Virus record (IMG/VR): IMGVR_UViG_3300022748_000010
Coordinates: 1-37,548 of that record
Source: a virus
Strand: one strand, 5' to 3'
Length of the DNA: 37,548 nucleotides
Under the pieces are notes generated by a model that saw only the letters and a list, made by a program, of their open reading frames with translations, had not been told where the DNA came from and made no database searches. The translations under genes and the position numbers were made by a program. Positions 8,178 through 24,813 of this stretch are shown here, one piece after another; position 1 is the first letter of the stretch; the number at the start of each line of letters is the position of its first letter.

Positions 8178-8624
8178 TTAGATCACCCAAAATTCTTCTA
8201 GTTTTTGAAATCCAAATTTGTCATAAGACAAATCGGGGCTGTTCACCATTTTGCTGATGAAAAAATTGCAAATGCGACCCGAGTCTTTTTGCGCTTGTGC
8301 TTCTGCCACATACATATTCAACAAACGATACCCCGCTGTGCCACCACGATGTTCTGGTGAAACCCAGTAGGCCAACTCTGTCATCAACAAATGTTTGGGT
8401 GACCAGCGGCTTGGATGAATGCCAGCCAACAACATACCGAACACGTTTCCATTTTCTGCAACGAGCGCAACACCTTTGCCGCTGATGATTTCATTCAACA
8501 TATTGGTGATGTATTTTTCGTCATCGGCTTCGCTCAAAAATTGCAATGGCGTTTGCGAACGGTATTCGCGCAACAACGAAATCAATGCAGGAATGTCAAA
8601 CGGCGTGGCGTGACGAACTCTCAT
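8178..8624 (-). CDS. GNAT family N-acetyltransferase
   Basis: 148 residues. The acetyl-CoA pyrophosphate loop is visible as YWVSPEHRGGTAGYRLL (about residues 86-102; R93-G-G-T-A-G98), followed by a helix and a C-terminal YDKFGFQKLEEFW segment typical of GNAT enzymes. The acceptor is unknown; it could be a virion or host protein. The ATG overlaps the upstream stop (ATGA at 8621-8624), so it is translationally coupled inside the tail-tip gene row. SD GGGAAAG precedes it. GNAT genes at this place occur in other siphoviruses. Confidence 0.8.
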   Translation of the reverse strand: MRVRHATPFDIPALISLLREYRSQTPLQFLSEADDEKYITNMLNEIISGKGVALVAENGNVFGMLLAGIHPSRWSPKHLLMTELAYWVSPEHRGGTAGYRLLNMYVAEAQAQKDSGRICNFFISKMVNSPDLSYDKFGFQKLEEFWVI

Positions 8625-11817: not shown

Positions 11818-12165
11818 TTACCTCTCAAACAAGTGTGCAGGCGCGTTTGGACTTGCCTTCATGAAGGTTGACAAACTTTCACTCACCTTGCTTGCCTTTT
11901 CCTCGTCAGACATTGGCGGGTAAATGTAGTCGTAACCCCGTGGAATCATGTCTTGTAGTGTGTAGGCACGCTGCGCTTCCGGCCTCATGTAATTGTAAAT
12001 CGCGCCTTTCAAAGAGCCAAGCGTTTCCAACAATCCACGATTGCCAATTTGACCGTCCACATACATGATGCAAATATCGGTCAGCCTTTCCTCGTCTACG
12101 GTGTCAGGGTCAGTTCCGTGTGCGGTCAAATACGCTTTGACCTGCCTGCGGACTGACCCCGTTAT
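11818..12165 (-). CDS. Tail assembly chaperone, -1 frameshift extension (GT-type)
   Basis: This frame has no convincing start of its own; a TTG start at 12129 has no clear ribosome binding site. A -1 slip at 12165-12171 joins it to the upstream chaperone and adds 115 residues (beginning ITGSVRRQVK), making a fusion of about 277 residues. This matches the gpG/gpGT scheme of lambda, in which the fusion binds tape measure and tube subunits during tail assembly. The sequence then contains DEERLTDICIMYVDGQIG and ends at 11818, just before the tape measure gene. Confidence 0.8.
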   Translation of the reverse strand: MTGSVRRQVKAYLTAHGTDPDTVDEERLTDICIMYVDGQIGNRGLLETLGSLKGAIYNYMRPEAQRAYTLQDMIPRGYDYIYPPMSDEEKASKVSESLSTFMKASPNAPAHLFER

Positions 12166-12650
12166 TTTCCCTTTTGTGCCTCGTATGAAGGCGAAACAGT
12201 TTTGGTGATCTCATCCACGAGTTGCATTTGAATGGGGAACGGGAAAAGTTCCTCAATCATCTCGTAGGTGATTGTGTTCATGTCAAAACCTTGTTCCTCG
12301 GGGACAAGCATTTTGCACATTTCGGTGATGCGATTTTCGAGCAGGATTTTGTTCTTGGCAGTTTCGCGCATGGAACGTCCGTCGAGTAATACATCGTTCT
12401 CAAGCCATTCGCATTTGATGTTTGAGTCTTTTGCATTTTTCAGCGGCACAAGGCCCGCTGTAAGTTGTTCGTAATACTTGCTGACGCGGGCCTCGTCAAC
12501 AATTTTCATGCGCTCTTGCATGGCTTCAAACTCCGCGGTCAGCGGCACTTTGACTTTGAAAACGTGGCCTCCAAGTTCGAACGCACGCGTGCGCACCATG
12601 TCCTTGTGTTTCAAAAAGTTTTTGCCAAAAGCGTTTGCGAGTTGGTTCAT
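12162..12650 (-). CDS. Tail assembly chaperone (G-type)
   Basis: 162 residues, charged and helical, ending SYEAQKGK before TAA at 12162. It lies between the HK97 gp10-like gene and the tape measure gene, the standard place of the tail chaperone. SD AAAGGAT precedes the ATG. The last codons form the slippery heptamer that produces the longer form. It acts in the host cytoplasm and is not expected in the mature virion. Confidence 0.8.
   Translation of the reverse strand: MNQLANAFGKNFLKHKDMVRTRAFELGGHVFKVKVPLTAEFEAMQERMKIVDEARVSKYYEQLTAGLVPLKNAKDSNIKCEWLENDVLLDGRSMRETAKNKILLENRITEMCKMLVPEEQGFDMNTITYEMIEELFPFPIQMQLVDEITKTVSPSYEAQKGK
12165..12171 (-). other. Programmed -1 ribosomal frameshift site GGGAAAA
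   Basis: On the minus strand the zero frame reads AAG GGA AAA TAA. The heptamer G GGA AAA fits X XXY YYZ, and the stop follows at once. After a -1 slip the next codons are ATA ACG GGG, entering the open frame 12165-11818. Lambda uses the close relative GGGAAAG in the same gene pair. Confidence 0.8.
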
Positions 12651-12653
12651 GTC

Positions 12654-13184
12654 TTATCCTTTCTTGGCTCGTTGAGCCTGTCTTGCTTTGTATTTGTCTA
12701 TCGCCTGCCGTAGTGTAGTCGATAGGTTTTCCACGATCACATTGGCATTGCTTTCCAACGATGAGCGCAAAAATGGTTGTGGTGCAACGTGCGCAGTGCC
12801 AAACTCCGCGGCAATCGCACGCGCATCGCTCTTGATACCTTTGGTTTTTTTCTTGGTCTTTTCGTTGAAGTAACTTTTGCGTGCCAAGACGCTGCCGGGA
12901 GCAGTTGTGACCGTTGCCACCACGGTGTCGTTCTCGTTGATGTATTTCGACGCCTTCATGCGTTTGTTGGGCTTGCGTGCCTCAATACGCAAAGACTCGC
13001 GCAACGCGCCGGTGTCCACGGGCACGTTGGCTTTGGCTGTCATCAAAGCGGGGACCATCGCCTCGCGAACGCCGCGAATCAAAATGTTCCGTGAATCTTT
13101 TGGTCCGAAGTCGTTTGCGAGTTCCTGAAAGACGGCTCTCAGTTCATCAGCACCAACAACGGCAACCGAGAACGTTTTTGCCAT
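12654..13184 (-). CDS. HK97 gp10-like head-tail / tail completion protein
   Basis: 176 residues. It carries VPVDTGALRESL near the middle and the family signature GTAHVAPQPFLR near residue 140, typical of HK97 gp10-like proteins at the head-tail interface. A basic C-terminus (YKARQAQRAKKG) closes the protein. The ATG at 13184 overlaps the upstream stop as TGATG, so it is preferred over the GTG one codon upstream. Confidence 0.8.
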   Translation of the reverse strand: MAKTFSVAVVGADELRAVFQELANDFGPKDSRNILIRGVREAMVPALMTAKANVPVDTGALRESLRIEARKPNKRMKASKYINENDTVVATVTTAPGSVLARKSYFNEKTKKKTKGIKSDARAIAAEFGTAHVAPQPFLRSSLESNANVIVENLSTTLRQAIDKYKARQAQRAKKG

Positions 13185-13411
13185 CACTCACCCTTTACGA
13201 GTTTTTGGAATACGGCGTTATTCAGTCGGGCGGCAAAATCCGCAATTTCCTCTGGTGTCATTTTGTCAGCGTGAATTTTGGCGATCTCATACGCGAGGTG
13301 GATGCCAACGATTCGTTGCTGAGTGAAACCGAACCAGTTTTTTTGACCTGAGTTTGCACAACCTACGATGTAGTTGAGCAGGTCGTCGGAGTTTTGTATT
13401 GGTGCTGTCAT
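13184..13411 (-). CDS. Small protein of the tail region, unknown
   Basis: 75 residues beginning MTAPIQNSDDLLNYIVGC. Mostly helical, no membrane segment, no family recognised. It follows a strong terminator by a few bases and has no good ribosome binding site of its own, so its expression should be low, perhaps from read-through. Its stop overlaps the next start (TGATG). Confidence 0.55.
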   Translation of the reverse strand: MTAPIQNSDDLLNYIVGCANSGQKNWFGFTQQRIVGIHLAYEIAKIHADKMTPEEIADFAARLNNAVFQKLVKGE

Positions 13412-13418
13412 GTTGAAG

Positions 13419-13439
13419 AAAAAGCCCCGAAGGGCTTTT
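13419..13439 (-). terminator. Rho-independent terminator after the major tail protein gene
   Basis: On the minus strand AAAAGCCC pairs perfectly with GGGCTTTT around a TTCG tetraloop, and the T-run continues as TTTTTCTT. It lies between the stop at 13442 and the next start at 13411. It would end most transcripts of the abundant tail tube gene. Confidence 0.85.
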
Positions 13440-13441
13440 GT

Positions 13442-13963
13442 TTAGTCGTTGGACCAACCGTATTCGTTGCCGCCTACGGGGTGCACTGTGAAGATGAATT
13501 TGCTTTCGGCCGATGGAGACAAATCCCATTGCAGGCCACCGATGCGTGCGTTGAACGCGTATGCAACAGTGTTTGCGCCGTCATAAACAGCCACTACGAA
13601 AGTGCGAATAATGTCGCCAGCGTAGCCGTCAGAACGGATTTGCAACAAAGCAGCGTCAGATGGATTCCAAGCGGCTGTGATTTGCATCGAAGTCACTTGG
13701 TTTTGTGTAGTGATCTTCGCGCCGGTGCGAGCGCCTGCGATAGAGTAGGTTGCAGATGCGTCATCAGCACCGAAAGCAGGGATTGCTTCAACGGGAACTT
13801 GCATGCCAGTTGTGCCAGTGCCGCCAGCGGTTGTGCCGACGATTGCTTCGACTTGCGCAGTCCATGTGCTCAATTGCGAAACGGTCAACGGAGTTGGAGT
13901 TGCGCCATTTTGCATCCACAGGGTTGCAACATATCCGGGTAAGACTTTATTGATGAGTGCCAT
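13442..13963 (-). CDS. Major tail (tube) protein
   Basis: 173 residues. Its size, all-beta composition and place after the tail completion genes and before the tail chaperones identify the tube protein. The N-terminus has the form MALINKVLPGYVATLW and the C-terminus is rich in Asn, Gly and Trp. A strong SD (AAAGGAAA) precedes it and a strong terminator follows, as expected for a highly expressed structural gene. Confidence 0.75.
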   Translation of the reverse strand: MALINKVLPGYVATLWMQNGATPTPLTVSQLSTWTAQVEAIVGTTAGGTGTTGMQVPVEAIPAFGADDASATYSIAGARTGAKITTQNQVTSMQITAAWNPSDAALLQIRSDGYAGDIIRTFVVAVYDGANTVAYAFNARIGGLQWDLSPSAESKFIFTVHPVGGNEYGWSND

Positions 13964-14002
13964 TTTTAAGTTTCCTTTGAAAGAGTTTGGTCAATTCTTG
14001 TC

Positions 14003-14428
14003 TTATGTTGGAATGTCGAGTGTGCAGTCCAAAATAACTTGGTTCATCCCGATGGTGTCATCGTAGGTGTTGAACAACCAAGTCACATCAGCCTTTGCTA
14101 CAAAGAAACCATTTGTGGCGGGATTGCCGAAAGTTCCTGAGTAACCGTGCAGAGATTGTATGACTTCGTTCGCCAAATTGAAAGCGGCATCGAGGTCTTT
14201 CGCAAACACGGAAATTTGAAAAATCGGACGGTCAATGCCTTTGTTTCCTTGCGTTTGTCCAGTGTAAACCGGCTGGTGCACGTTGCGCAAATTCCAAGTC
14301 AGAAAACCAGAACCTTCGGTTGCCCAATTCCTGTTGAAGTTTGCATAAACAGGCAGCGGCGCAACAATGCTCGCCAATTGATATTGGATGCACTGCGCGT
14401 ATACCGCTGGATTTTGTTGTGTCGTCAT
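14003..14428 (-). CDS. Tail terminator / completion protein
   Basis: 141 residues from MTTQQNPAVYAQC. This start is preferred because its ATG overlaps the upstream stop as ATGA (14425-14428); an upstream in-frame extension has no such support. Position between the head-tail joining protein and the tube protein suggests a tail terminator (gpU-like or DUF3168-like) that caps the tube. No motif settles the family. Confidence 0.6.
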   Translation of the reverse strand: MTTQQNPAVYAQCIQYQLASIVAPLPVYANFNRNWATEGSGFLTWNLRNVHQPVYTGQTQGNKGIDRPIFQISVFAKDLDAAFNLANEVIQSLHGYSGTFGNPATNGFFVAKADVTWLFNTYDDTIGMNQVILDCTLDIPT

Positions 14429-14769
14429 ACTGTTGTCGCGGGGTCGTTGCGGTAACACAAAAACGTCACTTTCATCCGGTCGTTTGACTCACGAATGTCG
14501 GTGATGCGCCAGTCAAAGCCGCGCCAGTTGATCGCATACAAATTTTGGTTGTCCACAATTTGCCGCACGTTTGGTGTGTAGTTCACCGTGATGTTCACCA
14601 AATCTTGATAGACGCGGTAACGGTCAGAGATTCGCAAACTGTTGGCAACATCAGCCACGCGCCCACGGGTTTCAAACCACTTGGTCAACGTGGTCGTGTA
14701 TTGACCATAGTCATCAATCGCGTTGATGACGTTGTTGAAAATAAAATTCTCGTACCGTGCGATTGCCAT
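14425..14769 (-). CDS. Head-tail joining (head closure) protein
   Basis: 114 residues beginning MAIARYENFIFNNVINAI. It contains RGRVADVANSLRISDRYRVY and NWRGFDWRITDIRESNDR. Length, beta content and order after the gp6-like connector match a small head-closure protein. The ATG follows the upstream TAA directly. It is coupled to the next gene by ATGA. Confidence 0.6.
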   Translation of the reverse strand: MAIARYENFIFNNVINAIDDYGQYTTTLTKWFETRGRVADVANSLRISDRYRVYQDLVNITVNYTPNVRQIVDNQNLYAINWRGFDWRITDIRESNDRMKVTFLCYRNDPATTV

Positions 14770-15432
14770 TTACATCACCAAAGGCTTGTATGGTCGCAGC
14801 AGGGCTTGCACGCCGAACGGAATTTGTTTCAATTGCACCTCTGTCGTGTCGGAACGGTTGTTGTAAAGGTGCGTGAGCAACAACAACGCCGCTTGTTTGA
14901 TGACAGGGTATTGCGCCAAAAAACTCGCGTTCTGCGTGTAGGTCACAGTGATCGGGTTGGCAACGTTTTGGTTCAACGTGTTGGGGATTGTGTTCAAAAT
15001 CACTCGGTTGCCCGTTGGGTCATACGAATAATTTGAAGGCGCGATCAACTCTGGCACGGTGTTCGAGTTCCCGTAGAACTCCACGCGGTTGATGGTCACA
15101 CCCGCAGCACCTTGATTCGGACCGGACACCTCGGGCAAATCCAAAAACACAGCCGTGTTGTAAAGCCCGAAATTCGGGTAATACACTTTGTATTGCGTTG
15201 GATAAATTGCCAGACCGAGGAAATCCTCAATCGCCATACGCGTTGCGAGTTCAAGACTCATCAAATACGTGTCTTGGCTTTCATCGTCGAACAGGTTGAG
15301 TTGCTGAGTGATCTCGGCAAGCGTCAACCATTCAGTCTGAATATCACGGCCGACTTGTTCAAACTTGGCGTAGTTGTATGGATTCCCTTGCGAGGAATAA
15401 AACGGCGCGAGTGTTTGATTTTCAACAGCCAT
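14770..15432 (-). CDS. Head-tail connector protein (gp6-like)
   Basis: 220 residues. A helical N-terminal part (LTLAEITQQLNLFDDES, near 35-52) and an end of the form LLTHLYNNRS, followed by IPFGVQALLRPYKPLVM, are typical of gp6-like connectors that sit under the portal. SD AAAGGTAA precedes the ATG. It lies directly after the capsid genes, in the usual HK97 order. Confidence 0.8.
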   Translation of the reverse strand: MAVENQTLAPFYSSQGNPYNYAKFEQVGRDIQTEWLTLAEITQQLNLFDDESQDTYLMSLELATRMAIEDFLGLAIYPTQYKVYYPNFGLYNTAVFLDLPEVSGPNQGAAGVTINRVEFYGNSNTVPELIAPSNYSYDPTGNRVILNTIPNTLNQNVANPITVTYTQNASFLAQYPVIKQAALLLLTHLYNNRSDTTEVQLKQIPFGVQALLRPYKPLVM

Positions 15433-15441
15433 GATTTACCT

Positions 15442-16461
15442 TTAAGCGGCAGAGGCGCGAACGCCAGCAAACGGGTCGCGCACGGTAGTTGCCACACGTT
15501 TCTCAGCATACAGTGTAACGAAGCCGGGAGCGGTTTGTTCGTAAACCTGCACATCCATTTCCTCAACGTCTGCGATGGTCAAGAAACGGTCCCAGTTTGC
15601 CAAATAGATCGGGAAATCTGCTGACAGGTAAGGGTTTGGCACAACAGACCAACCAAAAATTGAACCGACTGCGCCGCCTTCGTTTGGTTCGCCCAGTTCC
15701 AAGAACAATGGCAAACCTTGCAGGTCTTTCAACTGACGCAGGGTTTGAATCATCGTGGGGGTCATGTGCCAAGCGGTCGTAGGCAGCGACCAATATTGCG
15801 CGGGCAACGCATTGGCGATGTTTGTGATTTTGTTGTAAGTCGGAGCAGCACCACCCAAAGAAACGGTAGCGATTGTGTGGATGCCGTCTGTCATGGCTGA
15901 ACCGCTTGTGCCATAAGCAGAAACGGAGCCGCTTACATACGAATCCAAACCGCGCAATCCATATGTCGCGCCAGTGCTTGTGGTTGTCGAACCTGCTTGA
16001 TCGTTGTTAGTTGCTTGCGATGCGCCCTCTTGTTGGCTGAATTCCAAAGCCAAGTCTGTCAACAAAGATTCTTGCAAACCGTTAATGTCGTCCATCGCGG
16101 CGATGCGGATAGGCAACGTTGCGTTAATGATGCGTGTTGGCATGACCCAAAACGACGTTGCCGTGTCTGGCGAGCCGGAGTTAGGGGTAGCGTTAGGGTT
16201 CCAAGGGTTTGCGCTTGTGGCGTTACCTGTTTTGGCAACGAATTGCACTGCGGAACTGTTGGGGGCTTTGATGTTGCGCGAACCCATGCGAAAAGGGTTC
16301 GCATAGCGCAACGCTGCAAAAGCGTCATCAAAATAAGTGCGACCACCGATACCAAGACCCGAACCGGTGAGCGTAGACGCTTCACGCAAGTCGATTGTTA
16401 CTTTGCCGCCTTCGTTGATGGCTTTTTTGATGCCGTCGATGATTTTTTGTGATGCACTCAT
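15442..16461 (-). CDS. Second HK97-fold capsid protein, without the N-terminal delta domain
   Basis: 339 residues from the ATG at 16461 (SD AAAGGAAT). It aligns with the capsid protein encoded just upstream: LTGSGLGIGGRTYFDD, ALEFSQQEGASQATNNDQAG, TGATYGLRGL and VYEQTAPGFVTLYAEKR all have close counterparts. It lacks the 70-100 residue helical N-terminal region of the first copy and has only a short helix (IIDGIKKAINEGG). It could form pentons, a minor shell component or decoration. A hairpin terminator lies between the copies. An alternative TTG start at 16485 was rejected because it lies inside that terminator. Confidence 0.85.
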   Translation of the reverse strand: MSASQKIIDGIKKAINEGGKVTIDLREASTLTGSGLGIGGRTYFDDAFAALRYANPFRMGSRNIKAPNSSAVQFVAKTGNATSANPWNPNATPNSGSPDTATSFWVMPTRIINATLPIRIAAMDDINGLQESLLTDLALEFSQQEGASQATNNDQAGSTTTSTGATYGLRGLDSYVSGSVSAYGTSGSAMTDGIHTIATVSLGGAAPTYNKITNIANALPAQYWSLPTTAWHMTPTMIQTLRQLKDLQGLPLFLELGEPNEGGAVGSIFGWSVVPNPYLSADFPIYLANWDRFLTIADVEEMDVQVYEQTAPGFVTLYAEKRVATTVRDPFAGVRASAA

Positions 16462-16483
16462 TTGGATAATTCCTTTGAAAAAC

Positions 16484-16508
16484 AAAAAGAGGGGAGCCGA
16501 AGCCCCCC
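16484..16508 (-). terminator. Rho-independent terminator between the two capsid genes
   Basis: On the minus strand GGGGGGC pairs with GCTCCCC around a TTCG loop (seven pairs, one G-T), followed by TCTTTTTG and then a second T-run. It starts 8 bases after the stop of the first capsid gene and would reduce transcription of the second copy and all later genes. Confidence 0.8.
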
Positions 16509-16515
16509 GCTTTCA

Positions 16516-17862
16516 TTACGCGCCAGTGGCGGTCGAACGGTAGCGAATGATCGAGAAGGGATCGACCACGCTGGTTGCCAAGCGTTTTTCACCGTAGAAA
16601 GTGATAAATCCGGGCTGTGTTTGTTCGTAGCGACGCAACACCATGCTCAAACGGTCAACGATGGTGTGACCACGTTGGAAATCGCCGAAATACATTGGGT
16701 ATTGGCTGTTTGTGCCAGCAGAACCACCAGCGGCGATAGGGCTTTCCAAGTAGGTGTTTACCACAACGTCAAAGCCGAGCAGTTTGCCGACGATGCCGTC
16801 ATAGATCAGCGGAGACATACGTTCGAACACTGGAGTGCCGTTGTCGTCTTTCAAACCACGGATGCCAGCAAGCATGATCGGGTTAATGATGAAACGGTTA
16901 CCGGTAGACCAGTATTGTTGTGGCAGGCTGTGAATGAAGTTGATCAAATCAGAATACGAAACGTTGTTGGCAGTGCCAAAACCGTTGGTAGTGATCTGGT
17001 CATAAGTGGCGATGCTGTGCAAACCGTCGCTAGACGAAGTGCCGCTAGAGCCAAAAGCCGCTGTGCTGATTGTGCCGCCAGTGTAGGTGGAGTTAGAGCC
17101 GCCGTACTGGTTCAAACCGCGCAAACCGTTGGTCGCACCGTATGCAGTGGTAGTCGAACCGGCTTGATCGTTGTTCAAGATCATGCTGAGGCCCTCTTGC
17201 TGCGAGAATTCTTGCAGCATGTCGTCCACCACGTTTGCTTCCAAACCATCAATATCGTCCAAAGCGGCGGTACGGATGGGGAACTGCACGTTAATGTCTT
17301 GCATGTTCAATTGCCAAATGCTCGTTGCTTCAGTAGTAGCCGAGCCGTTGTTTTGAATTGCATAGCCCCATTGAGCGCCTGCATCGCCCGTTTTTGCGCG
17401 GAATTGATATGTAGAGCCATCAGTTGCAACGTTGCGAGAAACGCCGCGCATAGGGTTCATCAAACGCAGTTTGTGGAACACAGGGTCATAAGCGGTGCGA
17501 CCACCGATGCCAGCGCCGGAACCGGTCAAAGCAGAGGCTTCGGTCAGGTAAGCAGCGTGTTGGTCTTCGGATTCCCACAACTTCAACTCTTGGTGCAACT
17601 TTGCGCCGGTTTGCTTTGCAAAGCCAGCCAGTTGTTCACGCACGCGACGGTTCACATCGCCGCGAACGGTTTTGTGTGGAGCGCGGATGAACTCAGGTGC
17701 AGAGATGGTTGCGACTTTTGCTTCCAAAGCGGCCATTTTTTCGTTGACTTCGTTTTTGACGGCATCAACAGTGGCAGCGACTTCGGTTTTCACTTCGTCG
17801 ATTTTGGTGAGTTGAGCGACTTCAATCGCTTCAACTTTTTCGAGGATTTTTTCAACTGACAT
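16516..17862 (-). CDS. Major capsid protein, HK97 fold, with N-terminal delta domain
   Basis: 448 residues from the ATG at 17862; SD AAGGAA is eight bases upstream, whereas a further ATG at 17868 is too close to it. Residues 1-60 form a charged coiled coil (EKILEKVEAIEVAQLTKIDE onwards), the scaffold-like delta domain normally removed by the protease. The shell domain begins near ASALTGSGAGIGGRT, with a conserved FSQQEGLSMILNNDQAGS helix-loop and the end YEQTQPGFITFYGEKR. It follows the protease gene, as in HK97. Confidence 0.92.
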   Translation of the reverse strand: MSVEKILEKVEAIEVAQLTKIDEVKTEVAATVDAVKNEVNEKMAALEAKVATISAPEFIRAPHKTVRGDVNRRVREQLAGFAKQTGAKLHQELKLWESEDQHAAYLTEASALTGSGAGIGGRTAYDPVFHKLRLMNPMRGVSRNVATDGSTYQFRAKTGDAGAQWGYAIQNNGSATTEATSIWQLNMQDINVQFPIRTAALDDIDGLEANVVDDMLQEFSQQEGLSMILNNDQAGSTTTAYGATNGLRGLNQYGGSNSTYTGGTISTAAFGSSGTSSSDGLHSIATYDQITTNGFGTANNVSYSDLINFIHSLPQQYWSTGNRFIINPIMLAGIRGLKDDNGTPVFERMSPLIYDGIVGKLLGFDVVVNTYLESPIAAGGSAGTNSQYPMYFGDFQRGHTIVDRLSMVLRRYEQTQPGFITFYGEKRLATSVVDPFSIIRYRSTATGA

Positions 17863-17872
17863 TTTCATTTCC

Positions 17873-18697
17873 TTATTTCAGGCGTTTGGAGAGTGCTTTC
17901 GACAACTCACGCAACTCAAGAGCGCGGAGCAGTTCGTCGGCTTCGGTCACCACCGCATCAGGCTCACCCTGAGTTGGGGGCACTTCAACTTTCACTGGAG
18001 CATCACGCTCGCTCATTACTCGTTTGAAGATACTAGATGCGGTGGTCGCATCCTTTTTGTTGAGGCCAGCATCACGCAAAGCCTTTTCCAAAACTCGTGG
18101 ATTCAAATTGCCTTGCGCGTCAAACGCCTCAAGTTTTTGAATCTCTGCATTAGGGTTGTTGGGATACATCACGACAGACACTTCGCGCAAACCACCTTTG
18201 GTGATTTGAAAATATGCGTTTTCCCAGTCCATTTCAGGGTTCGAATAAATTGTTCCGTCAGGCCCGGGAGCAAAAGGCTCACCATCAGCGTTGACATACA
18301 TCGCTTCTTCTGCAAAAGCGCCAACAGAAACGCCGCCAAACATATTGGGGCTCTCTTTGAGGATTTGATACAGGTCGTTGCCGCCCACGGTGTTCAAATA
18401 TAAACGGCCTTTTGCGGTCATGCCGGTGTCGTCGAATTCAAACGAATTCCACTCACCCATTGGCATACCCATGTCGTTGTGATTCAAGAACATCGGCAGC
18501 GGTTTGCCAGCCTCGGCAAACTCAGCGGCCCAGTCTGCAAAACCTTCTGGCTGATAGTTGAATTTGCGTCCGTCAGCGCCTTCGCGTGCGCCCCAAGTGG
18601 TTACGCGGGCTTCAAGTTGCCCGCTTGGTTGGGCGGCCTCGTTTGCGTTTTGCGACAGGCTGACTTTCGCCTCGCATACCAGATTCAGTTGTTTCAT
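17873..18697 (-). CDS. Prohead protease, HK97 (S78) family
   Basis: 274 residues. The catalytic His is visible in MFLNHNDMGMPMGEW (H73) and the Ser in FGGVSVGAFAE (S124); REVSVVMYPNNPNAEI then closes the protease core. The C-terminal 80 residues are charged and helical and probably act with the capsid delta domain as scaffold. It matures the capsid by cutting the delta domain. It lies between portal and capsid genes. Confidence 0.9.
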   Translation of the reverse strand: MKQLNLVCEAKVSLSQNANEAAQPSGQLEARVTTWGAREGADGRKFNYQPEGFADWAAEFAEAGKPLPMFLNHNDMGMPMGEWNSFEFDDTGMTAKGRLYLNTVGGNDLYQILKESPNMFGGVSVGAFAEEAMYVNADGEPFAPGPDGTIYSNPEMDWENAYFQITKGGLREVSVVMYPNNPNAEIQKLEAFDAQGNLNPRVLEKALRDAGLNKKDATTASSIFKRVMSERDAPVKVEVPPTQGEPDAVVTEADELLRALELRELSKALSKRLK

Positions 18698-18830
18698 TTA
18701 TCACCCCGTTGTGAATAGATTGATTGTCGTCTTGTATCTTGTGGGGTTTCTCTGTTGGGCAGAGTTTAACATCAGACTTCTTGGTTTGTGAAGCGACAAA
18801 AGCCAGCAATTGATTCAATGCGCTCATCAT
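18612..18830 (-). CDS. Small basic-tailed protein overlapping the protease start
   Basis: 72 residues beginning MMSALNQLLAFVASQTKKSD and ending in a basic RKRGRPTKR segment (62-70) that looks like an AT-hook. Its ATG overlaps the portal stop as ATGA. Its last 86 bases overlap the start of the protease gene in another frame. It fills a stretch that would otherwise be a 129-base gap, which favours it being real, but the overlap and lack of a family keep confidence low. Confidence 0.45.
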   Translation of the reverse strand: MMSALNQLLAFVASQTKKSDVKLCPTEKPHKIQDDNQSIHNGVINETTESGMRGESQPVAKRKRGRPTKRAT

Positions 18831-20224
18831 TTAGCCCCGATGTTCATTTTGTTGCGCTGATTACCACCACCACCGCCCGTGTCTTGCGGGCTTGTGCCAG
18901 AAATTTGTGTATCGCTACCGCCGCCATTTGAACTCAGTTCATCACCGCCGTCAATATCAGGCATGTTCATGTATTGACGCGCTTCGTTTGGTGTCATGAT
19001 TCCGGCTTTCACGCCAGCGGTCACAAAATTCATTTGGTCAAGCGGCGCGCCTTTCAAAAAATCTTTTGTGTCAAAACGAACGTGCAAATTTGGGTAACCG
19101 CGCAACAATTGCGATTTCAATTTTTGCTCGATGTTGATGACCATAGGATACATGACGGTTTTGTAAAACTCATCCAACATCGTTTGCGTGTTGTTGTATT
19201 TTTGGTCAGCAATACCAAGCATCGCAGGTGGCACGCCAAACAAACCGCAAATACGTTTCATGGTTTGCGTTTTCAACGCGGCAGCGTCAGCGTCTTGCAG
19301 CGTGAGCATTTTGATCGGGTCATATTTCATACCTTGATCGAGCAACATGCCTTGGCCTGCTTTGCTTGGGTCGGTTGAGCGCGAGCCTGTCATGGCGTTC
19401 CAAGTGTCTTTGATGCGCGAGGCAATTTCCTTGAATTTCGCGTCGGGAATTACTTGGTCGGTGTAAAAAATGCCGGTTGGCTTTGCGCCGTTCTGCATGA
19501 TAAAGTTTGCATAAATATCAATGTCTTGGTCCAGCGCAACCAACTCGGTTGCCAAAATGCCTTTGTTGAAACCGGACGAGCCTTGCCATGCGGCTTCTTT
19601 GATGTGCATGACTTGGTAATACTCAAGCGGCGTGTCTTTGCTGAAACCGTAGGACGGAGAACTCAGCACATACATTGGATAACGCGTTTCGGACAACTTC
19701 ACGGTGATGAGCGTTGCGTCGAGGTTATACATCTCGATTGGCGTTGCGGTGGAATCTTTTTGCTTTTCGCGCCACCACAGCGTGAACGACTCGCCTGCCA
19801 AATCTTGCCACATGCACCACTGATACCAAAATTCGTAGGCGCTTTGGAAATTGTTTGGCGTAGTCAGCAGGTTCAAAACCTGTTTTGCTTTCGCTTTGTC
19901 GCGGCTTCCAACGCTTTTGTCTTTAATCGCGTCAACAAAAGTGCCGTCATCATTTTTGGACATGATGGAAATGGAACATTGCGACAACGCACGCGCTTTC
20001 ACGCCGACGCAACCCATGATGGTCGAATTGCGCGTGAGCGCGGAAATATCCACCACTCTGCCAGCGGTTGTGGTGCTAGACGTTGTGACATACAGCAACT
20101 GTTGCGCGGGTTGGCTTTTTTGATCGCCAATGACAACTTGGTTACCGAGTTGGAGTTGACCGAGGACAACGTTCGACTCGTTCTGGGTCGTCTTTTTTCC
20201 CTTGAAAATGTCAAAAATTGCCAT
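18827..20224 (-). CDS. Portal protein, HK97 family
   Basis: 465 residues. The middle has the usual portal features: an NAMTGSR segment (about 285), a clip/stem region with MKRICGLFGVPPAMLGI (about 332-348) and the helix TQTMLDEFYKTVMYPMVINI. The C-terminus is a disordered Gly-rich tail. A strong SD AGGAG precedes the ATG. The gene lies between large terminase and protease. Twelve copies would form the DNA entry ring. Confidence 0.92.
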   Translation of the reverse strand: MAIFDIFKGKKTTQNESNVVLGQLQLGNQVVIGDQKSQPAQQLLYVTTSSTTTAGRVVDISALTRNSTIMGCVGVKARALSQCSISIMSKNDDGTFVDAIKDKSVGSRDKAKAKQVLNLLTTPNNFQSAYEFWYQWCMWQDLAGESFTLWWREKQKDSTATPIEMYNLDATLITVKLSETRYPMYVLSSPSYGFSKDTPLEYYQVMHIKEAAWQGSSGFNKGILATELVALDQDIDIYANFIMQNGAKPTGIFYTDQVIPDAKFKEIASRIKDTWNAMTGSRSTDPSKAGQGMLLDQGMKYDPIKMLTLQDADAAALKTQTMKRICGLFGVPPAMLGIADQKYNNTQTMLDEFYKTVMYPMVINIEQKLKSQLLRGYPNLHVRFDTKDFLKGAPLDQMNFVTAGVKAGIMTPNEARQYMNMPDIDGGDELSSNGGGSDTQISGTSPQDTGGGGGNQRNKMNIGAK

Positions 20225-20254
20225 GTTTTTCTCCTGAATTGGCTCGATGTTATA

Positions 20255-21925
20255 TCAAAACGCTCTGAAACCAAAACTGTTGCTCACGAACGGATTGTCC
20301 AAAGAGCAGTGCGCAGCAATAATGAGCGCGATTATTCCGTCAACTTTCGCGGCTTTGTCGGCTTCGTTTTTGCGCACCTTGATGTTGCCGTTCACGTCGG
20401 TGTAAACCTCGCAGTTTCCAAGTTGCCAACCAACAAAAGGGTTCCCGTCGTGTTTGATTTGCTTGTTTAGAATCAATTTTTCCACGTATTTGCTCGGATT
20501 GTTCAAGACCGCCATGCCTTGACCCACCTTTTTCACGGGGACACCAGCATCATGCAAACGAGCCACCAAAGAAGCCGCGTTGTAAGCGTCATAGCCCACC
20601 TCTTTGACGTCATACTTTTTGCATTGCTGGTTAATTATGTAATCGCTGATTTCCCTGTCGTCCATCACGTTGCCCTCGGTCAATTTGAGAATGCCGCTGT
20701 CAATCGCCACGCGGAAAATGTCGAGGTAGTGTTTCGGGATGAATGTGAGGCTTTCCTCCGGCAGGAAAAATTGCCACTCAGCCTCGTAGTCCAGTTCGCC
20801 GTATCGTTTCAGGGTGCACACGGCGTTCAAGTCACGCGTCGCCGCCAAGTCAAAGCCAATGAACACGGCTTCTGGTTGCCTGTCGGCCGGCTCAATCAAA
20901 CAAGTCGGGTCGTCCCAGTGCGCGCGGTCCAACCAAGCAGCATTTGCCGAAACCCACACGTTCAAAGTTTTGCACAAAAACTCATTCAGGGCTGCGGGTT
21001 TGTGTTTCGCTTCCTCGGCACGCGCTTCAATCGCTGACTCAAACACAGAAATGCCGTGCATCGGGTTGGCCTTGGCCCAAGTTGCGGGGTCGTGCCAGTC
21101 GTCGCCCACATCCAAGCCGTACAGCAGGCCGAACCAGCGCGGGTTGTCCGTTGCCTCGCCGCGAAGCATTGATTCGTACATGGACAAATCTTCGTAGAAC
21201 TTGGTGTCTTTGGTGAAAGCCGCCGTGGTGATGTAAATGCGGAGCGGGTTTTGCCGCGCCACCATACCGGAGTGCAAAACTTCAATGGAGTTGCGGTCCA
21301 CGATTTGCGCGGCCTCGTCCACGATAACTGTTGAAGGGTTTTTGCCGTCACCCGTCTTTTTGGTGTCGCGGCTCAACGCTTTGAAAATACTTTGGCTGTC
21401 GCCCCGTTTGCCGATGGCGTATTTGCTTGGCGTGAACAAATCTGCCAATTCTTTTGGCATCGCTTCGATGAAACCTTTGGACGCGTCAAAAACGATGGTC
21501 GCCTGTTCGCGGTTGGTTGCCAGCGTGTAAACCTCTGGTCCAGCCTCGCCAAAAAGCAGTTCGTACAGCGAGATCGCGCCGGTCAGTGTGGATTTGCCAG
21601 CCTTGCGCGGGATGAACAAAATCACATCTGTCACCATGCGACGGGTCAAATCTTTTTTGCCGCGGAACCCGTATATTGCACAAATCAGCAGAATTTGAAA
21701 CGGCTCCAGCACAATCGGCTCGCCAGCCATCGGGCCTTTGGTGTGCTTCAACGTGGCGGTGAAATCCAACACGTGTTGCGGGAAACGCTCATCGAAAACC
21801 CATTCCCACTCTTTGTTCTCGTACTGGTTCAAGAACCGTTGACAAGCCAACTGCACGTTGCGGCAAACCAGAATCTCGCCCTTTGCTACCGCGTGGGCAT
21901 ACGCTACACCGTCCTGCCAGTTCAT
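20255..21925 (-). CDS. terL: Terminase large subunit
   Basis: 556 residues. The ATPase has Walker A PRKAGKST (106-113) and Walker B STVIVDEAA (D203, E204). The nuclease has FIGFDLAATRDLNA (D359, D365) and a late Asp in KVDGIIALIIA. It drives DNA packaging together with the small subunit at 22189-22677. The ATG overlaps the stop of an 85-residue gene (ATGA). The arrangement with P27-type small subunit and HNH nuclease is typical of HK97-like packaging modules. Confidence 0.93.
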   Translation of the reverse strand: MNWQDGVAYAHAVAKGEILVCRNVQLACQRFLNQYENKEWEWVFDERFPQHVLDFTATLKHTKGPMAGEPIVLEPFQILLICAIYGFRGKKDLTRRMVTDVILFIPRKAGKSTLTGAISLYELLFGEAGPEVYTLATNREQATIVFDASKGFIEAMPKELADLFTPSKYAIGKRGDSQSIFKALSRDTKKTGDGKNPSTVIVDEAAQIVDRNSIEVLHSGMVARQNPLRIYITTAAFTKDTKFYEDLSMYESMLRGEATDNPRWFGLLYGLDVGDDWHDPATWAKANPMHGISVFESAIEARAEEAKHKPAALNEFLCKTLNVWVSANAAWLDRAHWDDPTCLIEPADRQPEAVFIGFDLAATRDLNAVCTLKRYGELDYEAEWQFFLPEESLTFIPKHYLDIFRVAIDSGILKLTEGNVMDDREISDYIINQQCKKYDVKEVGYDAYNAASLVARLHDAGVPVKKVGQGMAVLNNPSKYVEKLILNKQIKHDGNPFVGWQLGNCEVYTDVNGNIKVRKNEADKAAKVDGIIALIIAAHCSLDNPFVSNSFGFRAF

Positions 21926-22179
21926 TTGTCGTACCCGATTTGCTGCGACGTTTCAGCCAGTTTCCACAGCGCACGCTCTTGTTTGATGCCAGCGTCGCGC
22001 CCGCGCTCAAAGCCGTCCATGTGTGCGATGGTCAACATATCGGCGTACTCTCGCTCCACTTTGTCTTCTATCAGTTTGGCAAAGGCTTCAAGTTCAAAAC
22101 TTGTAAAGTGAAACAATTGGTGTTTCTTAAAACATCCAGCCTGTCTAGCCATCTCAATGATTTCATCTTGTTTTGTCAT
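21922..22179 (-). CDS. Small phage protein of the DEIIxMAxQAG type
   Basis: 85 residues beginning MTKQDEIIEMARQAGCFKKH, with ELEAFAKLIEDKVEREYADM in the middle. It is related to the plus-strand protein at 33451-33750 (MTQDEIIKMAKQAG, LEVFVKLVAAKEREEIARM). Such proteins are common in phages and have no assigned function. SD AAGGAAA precedes it. It is coupled to the terminase large subunit gene, which may only reflect gene packing. Confidence 0.7.
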   Translation of the reverse strand: MTKQDEIIEMARQAGCFKKHQLFHFTSFELEAFAKLIEDKVEREYADMLTIAHMDGFERGRDAGIKQERALWKLAETSQQIGYDK

Positions 22180-22188
22180 GTTGTTTCC

Positions 22189-22677
22189 TTATCGCGCCAT
22201 TGGACCTTTGAGGAATTGAGTCAGCGGGCTGTCTTCCTCTGACTTGCCGGCCGACAAACGGCTACGCGGGGTGAGGCCCATTTCATTCATCAGTTGGATG
22301 ATGAGTGTCATGGTCTTTTGCCGGATGCCGATGTAAGGGTTAGGGCCAACGGTCGCGCCGTTGTTGAAAGTGGTCACGATGCCGTTTTTGTTGATGCCAC
22401 GGGTGCATTTGACATACAACTCCACGTGGTCAGCCAGCATCGCCAGCGTGTGTTTGTCTTGGTCGTTGCCAATTCCGTAGACGGTGAACAGAAAATCAGC
22501 GGTTTCCTCGATGAATTTGTCCTTGTCCCACCCGTCGGGATTGTCGAGCCATTCCGCTTTAGGGATTCTCTTTTTTATATTTTCGGGCAGGGCCGTAGGC
22601 ATTCCCTTGCGTGGGGTTGTGCCGTCAACCAAATGCAGTTCTGGGGCTTTTTTGTTACTCATGCCGTAATAATACAT
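22189..22677 (-). CDS. Terminase small subunit, P27-like
   Basis: 162 residues. The helical C-terminal half with NPYIGIRQKTMTLIIQLMNE and MGLTPRSRLS is typical of P27-family small terminases, which recognise the packaging site. The start at 22677 is chosen because a G-rich SD (AAGGGGGGG) lies five bases upstream; an ATG at 22662 is too far from it. A dyad at 22681-22722 immediately upstream is a candidate packaging site. Confidence 0.75.
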   Translation of the reverse strand: MYYYGMSNKKAPELHLVDGTTPRKGMPTALPENIKKRIPKAEWLDNPDGWDKDKFIEETADFLFTVYGIGNDQDKHTLAMLADHVELYVKCTRGINKNGIVTTFNNGATVGPNPYIGIRQKTMTLIIQLMNEMGLTPRSRLSAGKSEEDSPLTQFLKGPMAR

Positions 22678-23815: not shown

Positions 23816-24040
23816 TCATCCCTTCTGATATTGTCGCCGCTTACAGGCGTGTTTGCAACCGCAATTCGGTTCGACTTTCCACTCCGGCACTTCGCCCCAT
23901 CGCTCCATGCTTTTCGCCATGCCTTGTCGCATCATCTTGCATGGCTCGTCTAATAGTAGTCGCTCGCGGCAACCGAGGCAGGTCATTTGATAAATGCCCC
24001 AGTGTTTCTCGGTCTTGGCTCTGTCGCAGTCTTGGCACAT
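23816..24040 (-). CDS. Cys-rich small protein, zinc-finger-like
   Basis: 74 residues with MCQDC (C2, C5) and CLGC (C21, C24), probably one zinc site, and a Cys-rich basic end (CGCKHACKRRQ). The ATG at 24040 overlaps the stop of the dioxygenase gene as TGATG, so it is the last gene of the coupled cassette. It could bring DNA binding to the cassette or be unrelated. No family recognised. Confidence 0.65.
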   Translation of the reverse strand: MCQDCDRAKTEKHWGIYQMTCLGCRERLLLDEPCKMMRQGMAKSMERWGEVPEWKVEPNCGCKHACKRRQYQKG

Positions 24041-24813
24041 CACCAAAATTGATTGAACGCTTTGAGCGGGTAGAACACCAGCGTGTTGCGATATCCGTCC
24101 TCACGCAGCGGGATGATTGGCGTCACACCGTGCACGTTGCGCCACGCAGGGTAGACCAGCATGGAGTTATCCGCGGAGTCTACGGTTGCGCCGTAGTCTG
24201 GCACTGTGGTATTGCCACCTTTGGCGTGGCTACGCTTGGCGATGATGACGTTCACGCATCCCTCTAGGTTTGCGGCATCACGGTGGAATGGCGCGGCGAT
24301 GTTGTAGTTCGAGATGGAACTGGTGAACAGTCTGCCGAAACGCCATTGCGGAGGCACTTTCTCGTTGATGATCGCCTCTTGCTGCTCGTAGATGTTGGGT
24401 GTGATTTCTTTTATCAGGTCTTCCGCTTCCTTACACGCAACCAACATGGCTTTGATGAACGTCTGCGCGGATTTGACTTGGTGCACACTGGAAATCGTTG
24501 GGTAATTGCGCCTCATGTGTGGCTTGGGCGGCACGGAGCCGATGATCGTGCTGTATTGCTTGACCTCTGCCTCTTTGTTCATCAGCCCGCTGGAGCGTCG
24601 CATTTCGCTTTTGGGCACACGGCTGGAGCGCAGTTCCGCGTTCGCCACTTCCACGGCTTTGAGCAATCGGCCCGACACGCTTTTGATGTAGAAACCGATC
24701 GGCTCGCCGTTGACGGTGAAAATCGTGTCTTCCGTGATGTTGGGCTCAATGTCTCCGCACTTGTCGCCGATTTTGACGCTGTGTTCAAGTTGTAATAGTT
24801 CGACACATTTCAT
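24040..24813 (-). CDS. 2-oxoglutarate/Fe(II) dioxygenase, TET/JBP-like; candidate DNA base oxidase
   Basis: 257 residues. The double-stranded beta-helix core shows FHRDAAN (H177, D179) as the first iron ligands, GG at 199-200, NVHGVTPI (H228) as the third ligand and YRNTLVFYPLKAF (R242) for 2-oxoglutarate. This spacing and the HGVTPI...YRNTLVFY pattern fit TET/JBP-family enzymes, which oxidise 5-methyl groups of pyrimidines in DNA. The N-terminal 150 residues are helical and may bind DNA. The start overlaps the glycosyltransferase stop (ATGA) and the stop overlaps the next start. Family call is by motif only; another 2OG class is possible. Confidence 0.7.
   Translation of the reverse strand: MKCVELLQLEHSVKIGDKCGDIEPNITEDTIFTVNGEPIGFYIKSVSGRLLKAVEVANAELRSSRVPKSEMRRSSGLMNKEAEVKQYSTIIGSVPPKPHMRRNYPTISSVHQVKSAQTFIKAMLVACKEAEDLIKEITPNIYEQQEAIINEKVPPQWRFGRLFTSSISNYNIAAPFHRDAANLEGCVNVIIAKRSHAKGGNTTVPDYGATVDSADNSMLVYPAWRNVHGVTPIIPLREDGYRNTLVFYPLKAFNQFW

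Follow-up and report, generated by a model that had tools for sequence, protein, structure and literature searches.

The 37,548-nucleotide viral sequence analyzed here (the window) carries on its minus strand two adjoining capsid genes, here named CapA and CapB, between the genes for the prohead protease and the head-tail connector (Table 1); the question that this locus raises is whether a phage of this size divides the building of its head between two capsid proteins. We consider it rather probable, as the best of several readings of the sequences and structure models, that CapA would form the hexons and CapB the pentons of the shell, in the manner of gp23 and gp24 of phage T4.

Two HK97-fold capsid paralogs in tandem

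CapA is read from an ATG at position 17862 to the end of its stop codon at 16516; an ATG at 17868 was rejected as its start since the spacing to the AAGGAA ribosome site is too short. CapB is read from an ATG at 16461 to the end of its stop codon at 15442; the TTG at 16485, taken as the CapB start in a mechanical list of open reading frames, is unneeded. The ATG is preceded by AAAGGAA, and an AAGGA-like site ahead of the CapB start is usual among the relatives of this phage. Elsewhere in the window are a queuine tRNA-ribosyltransferase-like gene (24040-24813, minus strand; phrog_6059, E 1e-58), which may be part of a phage tRNA- or DNA-modification pathway, and, amid the tail genes, an acetyltransferase-like gene (8178-8624, minus strand; phrog_1249, E 4e-18).

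Table 1. Head genes and associated features of the capsid locus, in window coordinates.
Feature	Position	Strand	Basis
Terminase large subunit	20255-21925	minus	Head gene context
Portal protein	18827-20224	minus	PF04860, E 1e-58
Prohead protease (S78)	17873-18697	minus	PF04586, E 3e-07; PHROG head maturation protease
CapA, HK97-fold major capsid protein, 448 aa	16516-17862	minus	PF05065; phrog_10; structure model
Delta-like N-terminal region of CapA, residues ~1-105	17548-17862	minus	Predicted helices; start of the CapA-CapB alignment
Stem-loop resembling an intrinsic terminator, with a T-run behind it, in the CapA-CapB gap	16491-16508	minus	Sequence; relatives
AAAGGAA, likely CapB ribosome-binding site	16470-16476	minus	Reading of the sequence
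CapB, 339 aa, HK97-fold paralog of CapA lacking a delta region	15442-16461	minus	PF05065; identity to CapA; structure model
Head-tail connector, likewise below the terminator	14770-15432	minus	PF05135, E 1.4e-05; phrog_40

Both products match the Phage_capsid family of Pfam (PF05065) above its curated cut-off of 24.2 bits, CapA with 108.7 bits (E 4.5e-31) and CapB with 62.6 bits (E 5.2e-17), and both match a 'major head protein' family of PHROG (phrog_10 for CapA). They are identical at 149 of 340 positions (44%; BLASTP E 9e-77), far above chance, in an alignment that starts at CapA residue 106. A reading made from the sequence alone (the sequence-only reading) had taken the two genes for tandem paralogs of HK97 fold, with common blocks from LTGSG(A/L)GIGGRT to a YEQTxPGF end; the Pfam matches and the degree of identity bear this out, and the LTGSGxGIGGRT and YEQTxPGF blocks were verified in both proteins.

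The structure model of CapB (pLDDT 74) has the full HK97 fold and matches the capsid protein of RcGTA (Z 21.9 over 250 residues, 3.8 A) and the HK97 prohead (Z 18.1); the weaker model of CapA (pLDDT 60) also finds the RcGTA and HK97 capsids, with a Foldseek value of 2.5e-15 to RcGTA. A sequence search of the PDB with CapB as query gave nothing meaningful, and gp24 was absent from the sequence matches in the PDB and phage records, which returned RcGTA-like and siphophage capsids; kinship with gp24 is compatible with the lack of such a match. The CapB model also matches encapsulins, HK97-fold proteins without a delta region, at a Z score of about 16, and CapB might thus act outside the virion, by forming a compartment or small shell of its own or by serving as a decoy for host defenses that sense capsid protein. 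We regard this as decidedly unlikely, since phage capsids are the better structural matches and the CapB gene was never found outside the head operon. It is highly improbable that CapB assembles a second shell during infection, either a compartment of encapsulin type or a second type of head, which would give each phage two HK97-fold containers.

Conservation of the gene pair and of the intervening predicted terminator

The sequence-only reading had pointed to related phages as the place to look for the pair, and there it recurs. Six scans of viral contigs, a scan of genome contigs from bacteria and archaea, and a single phage record yielded 386 loci, the window included; some contigs were fetched repeatedly, and the number of distinct CapA-CapB junction sequences is 234. 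In each of the 360 loci with room for both genes, CapB comes directly after CapA on the same strand (in two of these, one capsid gene is split between frames). Loci with CapA or CapB only numbered 26, every one of them cut by a contig end within 154 nt, so that none represents a real single-gene case. The matches filed in bacterial or archaeal bins are probably phage contigs. The longest contigs bearing the pair are mostly 35-39 kb in length, and among the 253 loci of one set, CapB is at least 49% identical to its counterpart in the window. The sole isolate found is Methylophilaceae phage P19250A, a siphovirus of 38.7 kb that infects LD28 bacteria of fresh water (PMC8163748); its genes 5 and 6 are the same pair in the same order, with a terminator between them, and are 61% and 56% identical to those of the window, the second being annotated merely as 'hypothetical protein'. 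No description of this second protein was found among the open-licence papers.

In a maximum-likelihood tree, rooted tentatively with five single-capsid outgroup phages on long branches, all CapA sequences form one group and all CapB sequences another (SH-aLRT 82 and 94); these separate clades therefore point to a single old duplication that would have preceded the radiation of the lineage. A sister lineage without the pair was not found among phage records, in a search for the pre-duplication ancestor whose sampling stopped short of very distant relatives; from P19250A there is a gap down to capsids of less than 30% identity. The median dN/dS over 60 pairs of loci is 0.12 for CapA and 0.09 for CapB, indicating purifying selection on both, and strong selection on CapB. 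As judged from sequence comparison, CapB is a selected, functional protein, because the paralogy, the absence of the delta region and the terminator are conserved across hundreds of relatives. Nothing was found in favor of CapB as a decaying, functionless duplicate, and this idea, whose probability we consider negligible, is refuted by the unbroken retention of the gene (360 of 360 loci), its low dN/dS and its old, separate clade. In some loci (L135 and L259), CapA of one sublineage stands beside CapB of another, and the CapA and CapB trees disagree relative to the window; the two genes seem to recombine, each phage still keeping one of each.

Between the two genes of the window, the stem of the hairpin is followed by TCTTTTTGTT; this site is the best terminator match within positions 12000-22500. 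Terminator-like matches in the window number 18 vs. 17 expected by chance, and since this count is near chance, the credibility of the site derives from its conservation across relatives. A GC hairpin with a T-run occurs at most 75 nt from the CapA stop codon in 230 of the 234 distinct junctions, vs. 0/130 in control regions ahead of CapA, 1/129 beyond CapB, and 2/130 within CapA; the stems vary widely in sequence, with pairing preserved. In three of the four exceptions the GC hairpin persists, but the T-run is weak or there is a mismatch; the remaining one (L283) is identical in sequence to L288, where an inserted open reading frame for an HNH endonuclease (2096-2422; PF01844, E 3.7e-5) replaces the ordinary short junction between CapA and CapB. 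No CapB promoter was found in the gap between the genes, and codon use, a possible clue to the expression ratio, is alike in CapA and CapB and thus uninformative. The terminator-like element that had been proposed from the window is therefore present and retained in the lineage, and it would likely set CapA far above all genes that follow. Its predicted effect extends to every downstream head-tail gene, the connector and the tail genes as well as CapB; the earlier argument that it would lower the second capsid product is weaker than originally stated.

N-terminal regions and the proposed place of CapB in the shell

The assignment of a delta region to the first protein and its absence from the second agree with the predicted secondary structure: helices span residues 3-52 and 66-83 of CapA (at modest confidence), vs. 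a single short helix at residues 3-17 of CapB. CapA is longer at its N-terminus by approximately 80-100 residues, with long helices predicted, as expected of a delta region; in most members of the two families, the common EASxLTGSG motif is preceded by approximately 25 residues in CapB and 105 in CapA. In CapB, the LREASxLTGSG motif, which is common to the two proteins, follows a short conserved stretch of approximate sequence xKILxGIKxALxEG. In the model comparison, CapB from residue 50 onward aligns with HK97 from residue 128 onward, and HK97 loses an N-terminal peptide of 104 residues (PMC9024508); the counterpart of the mature HK97 N-terminus should therefore lie near CapB residue 26, and the predicted cleavage would release a propeptide of at most approximately 25 residues from CapB vs. 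approximately 105 from CapA. The corresponding propeptides in T4 have 10 residues in gp24 and 65 in gp23 (PMC9958956).

In approximately ten loci, belonging to two separate CapB sublineages, an in-frame domain of approximately 99 residues (phrog_2859, of unknown function and without Pfam match) is fused to CapB at the place of the delta region (L135, 6072-7397; also L136, L150, L256, L260, L261, L263, L269, L271, and L281). The same domain opens the capsid polyprotein of Roseobacter phage CRP-821 and Synechococcus phage S-CBS3, and lies within the prohead protease of phiPsal1; this occurrence ties CapB to prohead assembly and is counted in favor of a penton function. The short CapB N-terminus, exchanged in some relatives for a domain of head morphogenesis, and the position of the gene beside the connector gene could also accord with a different role in the head. 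CapB might initiate assembly or act as an adaptor around the portal vertex, or it might be an internal prohead protein that is removed before maturation; we consider such roles quite unlikely, as they would not require the complete HK97 fold and the conserved N-arm of CapB. One CapB subgroup (L292, L358, and L364) carries a threonine/glycine-rich insertion of up to approximately 70 residues in the E-loop region, where other HK97-fold capsids bear extra domains.

The similarity of CapA to CapB differs by region, from 0.56 in the N-arm and 0.56 in the spine/P-domain to 0.41 in the E-loop and 0.34 in the A-domain, a pattern that constitutes only moderate evidence because the domain borders are approximate and because CapB by itself is also fast-evolving in the E-loop and A-domain; among CapA proteins themselves, none of the compared regions is as conserved as the E-loop (0.74). 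The solved structure of a siphophage head shows the E-loop resting on a neighboring subunit of its own capsomer and the N-arm extending to the adjacent capsomer (PMC11445458). Since the divergence is largest in the parts that make contacts within a capsomer, CapA and CapB seem to be adapted to one lattice and to different capsomers, which would favor homomeric CapB capsomers, with the pentons as their natural place. In a close parallel, the T4 bypass mutations by which gp23 replaces gp24 include A-domain sites at the within-capsomer interface (PMC9958956). Alternatively, CapB could be a shell subunit without a dedicated penton role, mixed with CapA in hexons or placed at chosen lattice positions, as in the shells of Family 2B encapsulins; the 44% identity, the conserved N-arm and P-domain/spine, and the two-component encapsulins among the structural matches are in keeping with such mixing. 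This arrangement is rather unlikely, given that the E-loop and the A-domain, which pair within the capsomer, are the most divergent parts, and that CapA and CapB of different sublineages can be combined.

The preferred assignment of CapA to hexons and CapB to pentons, the latter already put forward in the sequence-only reading with T4 gp24 beside gp23 as its model, is supported indirectly by the fixed gene order, the selection on CapB, the separate clades, the conserved terminator-like element, the HK97 fold and the asymmetry of the propeptides; it has to be weighed against the observations that most HK97-type heads of such size need no separate penton protein, and that the terminator would act on all downstream genes. 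The expression ratio, the proteolytic processing, the presence of CapB in virions and its vertex position described here are what we infer for this arrangement. After a single ancient duplication of a major capsid gene of HK97 type, CapA would have retained the delta region as a built-in scaffold driving prohead assembly, and would be made in excess, as most transcripts are expected to end at the hairpin behind its gene, to form the hexons. CapB, its delta region lost, would be made at a lower level from read-through transcripts, and its homopentamers would be recruited at the vertices of the lattice formed by CapA, where the conserved N-arm and P-domain would meet the CapA hexons while the E-loop and A-domain of CapB would hold the pentamer together. 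CapA, and perhaps CapB as well, would be the expected substrate of the S78 prohead protease. If the head has T=7 geometry, it would contain CapA and CapB subunits in a ratio of 360 to 55.

Comparison with known capsid systems

According to a 2026 review, a single protein makes up hexons and pentons alike in phages with genomes of approximately 40 kb, such as HK97 and P22, and a distinct protein for the pentons is a rarity, exemplified by the large phage T4 (PMC13185644). The sequence-only reading had called the pair unusual in small phages; this agrees with the review, but within the present freshwater lineage the pair is common. Searches of the open-licence literature for paralogous capsid proteins or dedicated penton proteins in small phages turned up no earlier report; the division of labor between hexon and penton proteins is known from T4, and an obligatory, ancient form of it in phages of approximately 38 kb was not found described in that literature. 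If the penton assignment is true, this division of labor would have evolved in small phages too, in an ancient freshwater lineage in which a second capsid gene is obligatory. The pair would then offer a simple system, with 44% identical proteins and one isolate, for the question of what makes an HK97-fold protein form a pentamer or a hexamer, and it allows one to ask whether vertices need the delta domain.

HK97 gp5 and RcGTA Rcc01687, the best structural matches, share the fold and the head module of delta region plus S78 protease; they differ in that one capsid protein supplies both hexons and pentons. In Family 2B encapsulins (Streptomyces lydicus Enc1/Enc2, PDB 9bje and 9bix), two HK97-fold paralogs have been described in one shell; this shell belongs to a bacterial compartment that lacks a portal, a protease and a delta region. 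In T4, the hexon protein gp23 and the vertex protein gp24 are likewise two HK97-fold paralogs, the minor one with a much shorter propeptide, and are thought to have arisen when the major capsid gene was duplicated (PMC9958956). In contrast to the phages described here, T4 has a genome of approximately 170 kb, a prolate head (T=13/20) and a separate scaffold, and gp23 and gp24 are only approximately 20% identical, vs. 44% for CapA and CapB; since no T4-like capsid is a close sequence match, the CapA/CapB pair probably arose separately from that of T4.
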